Of a stretch of 64,000 nucleotides of DNA, positions 204 to 20,245 are shown piece by piece. This DNA is from Tetradesmus obliquus (lineage: Eukaryota; Chlorophyta; Chlorophyceae; Sphaeropleales; Scenedesmaceae), in contig CP126203.1 in assembly GCA_030272155.1 (NCBI GenBank), forward strand, positions 4,154,001 through 4,218,000. The letters run 5' to 3'. The translations under genes and the position numbers were made by a program. The first letter of the stretch is position 1. Each line of letters begins with the position of its first letter. The notes under the pieces were generated by a model. It was not told where the DNA came from, did no database searches, and saw nothing but the letters and a program-made list of their open reading frames with translations.

Positions 204-3200
204 CAAACAGCATGCGTCATCGTTCGGGAGATGGACCCCTGAGTTGATATCGACAAAGTTTGGTAACAAAGGAGAAGCGCACAGGTACGTCTGGTTGCCA
301 GGCGCGGTAACATTGGTGTCCGTGCATGTGGGCTGCAGGAAAAGTAAGCAGCAGCAGAGGCAGCATGGCAGACGCAAAAGTGAGTGCTCCCCAGCTACAA
401 GCACATGTGAGACTGAAGGCAGAAACAATCTGACGCATTAATCTAATTTGGAATTGCAACAGTCGCATGCGCCGTGCATGTTGAACAGCCGTGTCCTGCT
501 AACACAGCCTCACAGATCTGGCAAATGCCACCTTCACCAACATTGTAAACTTCTTGACACTGTCTCTGGCAAGGCATGATCAAGCAATAGCTGCCATCAA
601 CACTGAAGCAGACCCTCGACAAGTCACGGTGACAGCACACCAGGTGCCGAAGCATCAGTTTAGTTCTTGCTCACCGCGCAACAGTTCTCCAGGGTCCCGG
701 ACTGGCCAGGGTCGTTTGTGTTGGCGAGGCCCGGAGGACAGACAAACGATTCACAGTCTGTAGTAACCACCGCTGGTGATGGGCTGGGCGGCTCGGGAGA
801 TGCAGCTGGGGGTGTGCCTGGCGCTCCTGTAGAACCGGGTGGACCTGGCGACGGCGAGGGGCTGGCCACAGCTGGCGAGGGGCTGTCCGCTGCAGCAGGT
901 GATGCTGAGGGGCTGTCCACTGCTGCAGGTGATGGCGATGGGCTGTCCAATGCAGCAGGTGACGGCGAGGGGCTGTCCGCTGCAGCAGGTGATGGCAAGG
1001 GGCTGTCCGCTACAGCAGGTGATGGAGAAGGGTTTGATAGTTGTGCAGGCGACGGCGAGGGGCTGTCCACTGCAGGTGACGGCGAGGGGCTGTCAACTGC
1101 AGGTGATGGTGAAGGGTTTGCTAGTTGTGCAGGTGACGGCGAGGGGCTGTTCACTGCAGCAGGTGACGGCGAGGGGCTGTCCGCTGCAGCAGGTGATGGC
1201 GAAGGGCTGTCGAGTGCAGCAGGTGATGGTGAGGGGCTGGCCAAGCTTGGTGAAGGGCTTGGTTTTGGCTGTAGAACAGCATTGTACGGCAAGACGAACA
1301 ACAAGGTAAGTGACTACCAGCCTGCCTAAGCTTAACTCTGGCAGCATTGCATGTTCTTAGCTGCTATCAGGTGCCACCTAATGCAGTGTGTGCGTGCCAT
1401 TGTAGCATTTGACATGTGAGCCTTGAGATTCCATCTCCTGCAGCCATATGTAGAGGCGACTGCAAACTCAAGCAATTTTCAAAAGATGCTTCACCATGCT
1501 TGGGTTGCGCTCACCATGCAGCACACTTCTTCACTGGGAGGTGAGAAGGGGCCGTTGTCCGTGTTGAAGGTGCTGTTGGCGCTGCAATTCCATCTTTGGT
1601 TCTGGTTTTGGTTGAGATCTGTATCTCTGCATGTGACCTGTAGATTTGCACAAGTGTGACCGTGTTGAAGGTGCTGTTGGCGCTGCAATTCCACATTTGG
1701 TTGAAGAATTCGATTATGGAGTATGCAGCAAAGCACACAACATAACACATGCATGCGATGCGTTTCTCCTCTGCTTGCTCAAAGGAATGATGCACAAGTG
1801 ACAGGTGCAATTTGCCGCTACATGCATGGTGACGTTAATGTGAAGCATGTAGTAGCGCACAGTAACCACACCGCTTGCGTGAGATATGCAGAAGTCTTAC
1901 CAGGCAACAGTTGGTGTCGTTGGCTGGCAACATGGCGATGCTCGGATCAGGGTTGAACAGCGCGCCTCCACAGCCATAAGCTACTGGATCCCTGGCTGGA
2001 CGCCTGTGTCGGCATGTGCCCTGCAGTGGCAAACACAGCAATGGGTTGGCTGCTAGCCAACCTTATGCATTTTAGCTGGATCTTGTTTCAGCATTCGGGC
2101 TGTTAAACAACAGAGCCATCAGCCGAGAGTCATCGGCTAGGCGCTGTCCTGGAATGATGGACCGCTGGCTTGATTGCAAGGGTACACGGGTGCACATTGC
2201 ATACCACTAGCCTGCCCAGCATATCGCAATATTTTGCAGACCACTCTATGACACTATCGCTGGCTTAGGTGCAAAGGGTACAAGCGTGCACTGCACATTG
2301 AGGGTGCCTTGCAGCAGAGAATCCTTACCAAGCAGCATGCTTGGACGCTGGGTGGCGAGAACGTTAGGTTGGCAGCATTCACCAGCGTTGTGATGGGGCA
2401 CAAAGTCTGCACAACGTCCGCGCATGTAGGCAGCGCCGGGCTTGGTGAAGGGGATGGGGTGGGGGACAGGTCTGACGAGGGGCTGGTCACGGCTGGTGAT
2501 GCAGACGGTGATGGGCTGGGCAGCTCTGGTGATGTTGCTGGTGATGTGCCTGGCGTTCCTCCAGAACCAGAAGGAGCTGGTGATGGGCTAGCCACATCTG
2601 GTGATGGGCTTGACACAGTTGGTGACGGGCTGGCCACGGCTGGTGATGGACTGATCAGGAGCTGCGGTGATGGGCTGGCAGCGCTTGGTGATGGGCTAGC
2701 AGCACCAGGTGATGGGCTGGCAGCACTTGGTGATGGGCTGGCCACATCTGGTGAAGCAGCTGGTGATGGGTTGACCAGGAGCTGTGGTGAGGGGCTGGCA
2801 GCGCTTGGCGATGGGCTAGCAGCGCTTGGAGATGGGCTGGCAGCGCTTGGAGATGGGCTGGCCACATCTGGTGAAGCAGCTGGTGATGGGCTGACCAGGA
2901 GCTGTGGTGAGGGGCTGGCAGCGCTTGGAGATGGGCTGGCAACGCTTGGAGATGTGCTGGCCACATCTGGAGATGGGCTGGCCACTGCTGGTGAGGGGCT
3001 GGCCACATTTGGTGAGGGGCTGGCCACATCTGGTGATAGGCTGACTGCACTTGGTGATGGGCTAGCAGCCGCTGGCACATTTGGAGATGGACTAGCTGCA
3101 TCTGGTGATGGGCTGGCCACATCTGGTGACGGGCTGGCCACACTCGGTGATGGGCTGGCCACACTCGGTGATGGGCTGGCCACAGCTGGTGATGCAGACG

Positions 3201-20245: not shown

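Follow-up and report, generated by a model that had tools for sequence, protein, structure and literature searches.

The window, a 64,000-nt stretch of Tetradesmus obliquus DNA (C13:4154001-4218000) within a 104.7-Mb assembly of 17 contigs, contains a long array of exons on the minus strand, for which a gene model was assembled manually from splice acceptors and donors. The predicted chain runs from an ATG at position 20245 to position 204 and includes 31 exons totalling 7,188 nt, or 2,396 codons, with 0 stops; read in the two alternative frames, these exons contain 37 and 54 stops. The counts of exons and stop-free codons are identical to those of a preliminary description of this DNA, which had also regarded nearly all of the exons as phase 0-0; this phase was found in 23 of the 31, the remaining eight forming four pairs with phase-2 introns between them. 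All 30 acceptors were CAG and 30 of the 31 donors started with GTG or GTA, the exception being the GC donor needed by exon 11. A four-cysteine module was present in 28 exons (absent from exons 1, 7 and 17), two of which carried two modules each, and 30 HMM matches to the module were obtained in the chain, including two weak ones (E 0.079 and 0.015), in keeping with the approximately 30 copies noted earlier. All 33 six-frame module matches within the window were on the minus strand, including some partial or decayed copies. A nucleotide pattern built on the conserved codons of the module occurred eight times in the window and not once in 100 dinucleotide shuffles, and the profile control, reversed proteins of the window and 20 loci, gave 0 module matches.

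Exon 1 (20171..20245), the placement of which is uncertain, holds the start codon and a signal-peptide-like N-terminus, MAGRRQQCNTLLWAVGVLLLWQQSL, which by eye is similar to the start of the annotated relative P0004, and it is followed by a weak donor (GTGCGA). The first module, which is divergent, lies in exon 2 (19619..19828; phase 0-0). Exon 3 (18854..18979) encodes the module RSTCADKD...CCK, and its best match in the contig C3 array L043 occurs in the same order. The module of exon 4 (18022..18144), ATCRDIYP..., is split ahead of its CC, which is supplied by exon 5 (17538..17687) together with the module PTCGDFDL...CCM, a join also seen in the annotated protein P0003. Exon 6 (16978..17100) contributes PTCADRNV...CCT. 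A Ser-Pro linker begins in exon 7 (16453..16514; phase 0-2) and is followed in exon 8 (15949..16285; phase 2-0) by further linker and the module PTCGDTRV...CCA. Exon 9 (14927..15039; phase 0-2) carries PTCGDYNL, again split ahead of CC, and exon 10 (14119..14251; phase 2-0) carries CCL and the module PTCTDRNV...CCL, followed by PTCQDTDV...CCTSQ in exon 11 (13633..13764).

Exons 12 to 16, termed block A, consist of a Ser-Pro linker with the short module TCSQPAWPC...CCT (exon 12, 12976..13341), one module in each of exons 13 (12475..12597) and 14 (12188..12310), a Ser-Pro linker with two modules (exon 15, 11544..11966) and one further module (exon 16, 10810..10935). After the Ser-Pro linker of exon 17 (10154..10353; phase 0-2), block B comprises exon 18 (9693..9819; phase 2-0) with the short module TCSQPPWQC, exon 19 (9174..9296), a copy of exon 13 with one residue different, exon 20 (8835..8957), a copy of exon 14, exon 21 (8058..8543), a copy of exon 15 with its linker and two modules, and exon 22 (7442..7567), a copy of exon 16. 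Exon 23 (6741..7181) joins a Ser-Pro linker to PTCGDTNI...CCL, exon 24 (6100..6212; phase 0-2) has a module split ahead of CC, and exon 25 (5554..5686; phase 2-0) has CCA and the module PTCTDRRV. Exon 26 (4016..4144) encodes PTCYDGDL...CCIKE and exon 27 (2329..3804), with 492 codons, a long Ser-Pro linker and a short module. The two weak HMM matches are the divergent module of exon 28 (1901..2020; E 0.079) and the short Cys tail behind the Ser-Pro linker of exon 30 (675..1268; E 0.015), between which exon 29 (1515..1637) carries VTCRDTDL...CCM. Exon 31 (204..332) carries a module and is not the last exon, as its donor, GTGAGT, points out of the window. The Ser-Pro linkers of the preliminary description, rods of the kind typical of hydroxyproline-rich glycoproteins, were recovered in exons 7-8, 12, 15, 17, 21, 23, 27 and 30.

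Partial copies were found between the exons. Two stretches within one intron (15312..15398 and 15135-15179, minus strand) gave partial profile matches and appear to be decayed exon copies, as does an exon-25-like copy at 5734..5796 (minus strand; E 0.00046 over the first 20 positions). At 7781..7891 (minus strand), outside the model, the second of the modules from the two-module exon is repeated in part, and a further partial profile match lies at 1658-1711. Partial or decayed exon copies imply that not every copy is functional.

Continuation of the predicted gene beyond the window

The gene had been taken to end at position 204, which proved to be the edge of the window, as the reading frame runs on through five more exons. 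Exon 31 is followed by a good donor, and the five further exons, in the adjoining stretch L032, are in frame and add 294 codons with no stop, giving an open frame of 2,690 codons with 0 stops. The first three encode a domain without the module that leads into a Ser-Pro stretch, and this domain recurs in L046 on contig C3 with 55% identity over 199 codons and a dN/dS of 0.27, with dS (1.42) close to saturation. The fourth and fifth exons, as far as which the frame was checked by hand, carry modules again, and modules can be traced to C13:4142858 (approximately -11.1 kb). The predicted gene is 22.9 kb long along the in-frame chain that was followed and probably exceeds 31 kb. To the left of the last modules, a repeated domain (LALLS...GPGLTA...) was observed at L031:3045-6713 and also in L047, L048 and L043.

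Block duplication and shared module order

Blocks A and B repeat one another in tandem, and their linkers are similar. In the five exon pairs compared, dN was 0.112 and dS 0.434 (dN/dS 0.26), with values for single pairs from 0.04 to 0.36, and purifying selection acts between the block copies. The tandem block and the decayed exon copies bear out the earlier proposal of exon duplication. The order of modules was shared between the window and L043 (0 of 1000 permutations as good) and between the window and the Scenedesmus protein P0003 (4 of 1000), more weakly with P0004 (35 of 1000). No module order in common with the window was found for L038, L040 and L044 (758, 299 and 627 of 1000 permutations).

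The four-cysteine module

The module is approximately 41 residues long with the spacing C-x14-C-x20-CC and the typical form T-C-x-D-x8-Q-x-[WFY]-x-C. Among 110 aligned modules, preselected as good full-length matches, the four cysteines never varied, and Thr2, Asp5 and Pro34 hardly did. In a broader algal sample of 157 modules, one of which had fewer than four cysteines, C-x14-C was kept in 146 of 156 and x20 ahead of CC in 119 of 156, and an aromatic residue stood two positions ahead of the second cysteine in 140 of 157. AlphaFold2 predicted the single module of exon 20 with a mean pLDDT of 88.5 and a pTM of only 0.52, and the two modules of exon 15 with a mean pLDDT of 81.8 and a pTM of 0.57.

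The preliminary description could not name the module and had proposed a profile search against Pfam. Modules of the window (23 modules; five joined) matched no Pfam family above cut-off. PHROG likewise gave none above cut-off for the 23 modules (best E 0.28), and NCBIfam none with seven relatives as queries. Fold searches gave no match in the PDB, with best Foldseek E values of 9.9 for the single module and 7.9 for the pair, nor in the viral library (best 4.3), and a VIA-align comparison found no similar fold in the one chain compared.

Several candidates were rejected. PBCV1_P7 (PF25636) resembles the module in that its description gives a small disulfide subdomain, but its matches were weak: five joined modules scored 25.4 bits over 11 residues, under the gathering threshold of 30 bits, neither of two single modules matched, and one of the 23 did so at E 0.079. 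Genome-wide, PF25636 had three matches, none within an array and 0 over cut-off. The chitin-binding domain CBM_14 matched one of 23 modules at E 0.041, which is not significant. A designed zinc-finger protein was matched among PDB sequences by the A1 profile (E 3.1e-5; another at 0.21), which we read as chance summed over repeats since no stretch, at 3.7-7.5 bits each, passes alone. Matches above the Pfam cut-off to SufBD_N in P0001 (58.8 bits) and NPCBM_assoc in P0005 (31.1 bits) were taken for chance because they sit on repeats in which no stretch passes alone. The best reading of these searches is that the module would constitute a domain family absent from the libraries searched.

Distribution in the genome and in algal relatives

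The recurrence of the module across the genome, as intronless tandem copies and in other proteins of Scenedesmaceae was not foreseen in the preliminary description. A one-module query gave at least 150 matches at E 10 or better (150 scored of 179 candidates) on eight contigs, and 233 matches at E 0.01, partial copies included, were counted in the window and 20 fetched genome stretches, which cover the fetched arrays. The largest fetched array, at C3:624-654 kb across L039-L041, contained 68 matches at E 0.05. The region C3:540-890 kb (L038-L041 and L043-L046) is a hot spot with several arrays on both strands, the longest approximately 27 kb.

Outside L034 a splice donor directly followed CC-x in 177 of 201 CC-ending matches, compared with 0.76% of window positions, and an acceptor at the module start was present as well in just 96 of the 201. 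In L034 the donor was present in 3 of 16 CC-ending matches. Module borders in the window gene lie at symmetric-phase introns, with 23 of 31 exons 0-0, as in exon-shuffled extracellular proteins. L034:1750-5899 (C15) consists of intronless tandem modules, some of which are identical copies; behind them comes a C-terminal domain that A0A383W215_TETOB also has (79% over 174 residues). On contig C4, a 1,486-residue open frame at L033:4541-9001, truncated at the edge of the locus, is made up of approximately 20 Cys-rich repeats that are almost identical (VVLCEGQPPLQASAAEAGWNSSC...) and has a weak module match at its end (E 0.0027).

The same module occurs in P0003, P0004, P0001 and P0015, which are unnamed or loosely named Scenedesmus and Tetradesmus proteins that differ from the window gene in being shorter as annotated (578-1156 aa) and in the domains at their ends, such as DUF11 in P0015. 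DUF11 domains were also seen beside the module in P0006 and, below cut-off, in L036 (C17). The joins of the annotated P0003 are identical to those of window exons 3-6 and, read by eye, differ from the window's after the ninth module of P0003; those of P0004 differ after its third. Three pieces of the Tetradesmus obliquus protein P0004 match within C3:870200-871029 at 79, 84 and 95% identity, and its other pieces match the genome at 60% or less.

P0004 carries the source name 'Pherophorin domain-containing', but hmmscan found no such domain at E 0.01 in it or in P0003. The pherophorin domain PF12499 was matched twice across the genome, on C5 and on C9 and both times away from the arrays, which agrees with the earlier statement that none is visible here, within an exon-by-exon search that could miss an intron-split domain.

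Lipoprotein-like proteins with the module

Ten open-frame proteins with the module, mostly lipoprotein-like and likewise not anticipated by the preliminary description, formed a second group. P0002 was obtained with a C15 query, P0005 (E 1.6e-49), P0007 and P0008 with joined window modules, and six more (P0009-P0014) with a profile of P0005, P0007 and P0008 plus P0006. Seven are located on a contig of 1,824,586 bp, two on one of 355,538 bp and the last on one of 4,969 bp, with predicted open frames of 428-1223 residues. The algal and second-group profiles aligned with 99.2% probability (E 1.6e-19) over 41/41 columns without a gap, and 18 of 18 aligned second-group modules had both C-x14-C and the aromatic residue. 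Against PDB sequences the second-group profile reached a best E of 0.98 and P0006 gave no match. In a tree of 149 modules, 50 of them from the second group, that group clustered with 8 changes against a shuffled mean of 42, a pattern compatible with a single origin or several and with transfer in either direction.

By eye, nine of the ten share the motif YQNC near the start, presumably a lipobox-like site, and a similar N-terminal domain, both lacking in P0007, and six of the nine have a full hydrophobic stretch ahead of YQNC. They differ from the algal gene in their open frames, their own N-terminal domain and the Thr-rich linkers seen by eye in several. Some Cys-rich stretches in these proteins also resemble EGF domains on visual inspection, with no Pfam match to EGF. 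Judged from these sequence features, the second group are probably bacterial lipoproteins and their host is probably bacterial.

Prokaryote species genomes gave 18 and 90 pattern-matching stretches, none of them a relative, and peptide and pattern scans of viral contigs found no relative at the sensitivity of these scans. A viral origin was rejected; the two pattern matches had in-frame stops and no significant module match, on DNA that we read as phage-like. Phages and plasmids had no match to a three-module stretch of P0005, and a plasmid match to the whole protein (20.1% identity, E 3e-3) was not accepted as a relative.

Discussion

We consider it likely that the array belongs to a single very long gene, grown by symmetric-exon duplication, whose product is a secreted protein of the cell wall or extracellular matrix made of Ser-Pro-linked beads. 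The product of its presumed single transcript would be a string of four-cysteine beads with two disulfides each, and the rods between them would be hydroxylated and glycosylated. One bead would usually be one exon ending directly after CC-x, and since exons end there and are mostly phase 0-0, exons or whole blocks could be duplicated without breaking the frame. Such duplication, perhaps by unequal crossing-over, may have led to the more than 200 copies that can be recognised in the examined parts of the genome, and the bead family would also be used by proteins resembling bacterial lipoproteins.

It is possible, if doubtful, that the module is a binding domain for adhesion or carbohydrate recognition and not mainly a structural bead, in which case the protein would be an agglutinin-like adhesin. 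The conserved aromatic residue in both groups and the EGF-like appearance of Cys-rich stretches in the lipoprotein-like proteins are consistent with this; however, the aromatic residue may belong to the core, and the single CBM_14 match, which might be cited in favour, is no evidence.

We think it unlikely that the chain of 31 exons artificially connects several shorter genes of the same family lying head to tail. Phase-0 exons chain by default and an open chain is therefore weak evidence of one gene, the C3 arrays adjoin one another on both strands, and the annotated relatives are shorter. Against this, the frame stays open for all 2,690 codons, including the exons past the edge, and the module order is shared with L043; the absence of longer relatives says little because the protein search covered only 0.55-1.75x the query length. 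Four or more partial exon copies could indicate a decaying repeat region whose protein is no longer made, which is highly improbable given the dN/dS of the block copies and, at near-saturated dS, of the extra domain, and given the intact splice sites, though the model was built by choosing such sites.

The family of more than 200 module copies offers concrete candidates for wall proteins of Scenedesmaceae and, as its copies differ in age, an example of ongoing protein growth through duplication of symmetric exons. The presence of the domain in probable bacteria can be tested as a transfer or as alga-bacterium contact. A scenario that we offer as speculation, and rate as rather improbable, is that a new domain family was transferred between green algae and a nearby bacterium and expanded in both into multi-bead surface proteins, with the bacterial lipoproteins perhaps binding or mimicking the algal wall through like-to-like module contact.

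To our knowledge, pherophorins have been worked out in Volvocales and the builders of Scenedesmaceae walls are less clear. Multi-term literature queries on Scenedesmus, Tetradesmus, Sphaeropleales and green-algal exon duplication returned no title naming such a protein, which is weak evidence of absence. Volvox carteri is described as having 118 pherophorins (PMC9818292). Pherophorins resemble the predicted window protein in being secreted, in carrying Pro-rich rods between globular parts and in forming a large gene family, but they have two domains of approximately 155-170 residues about one rod (PMC9818292), whereas the window gene encodes dozens of 41-residue beads.
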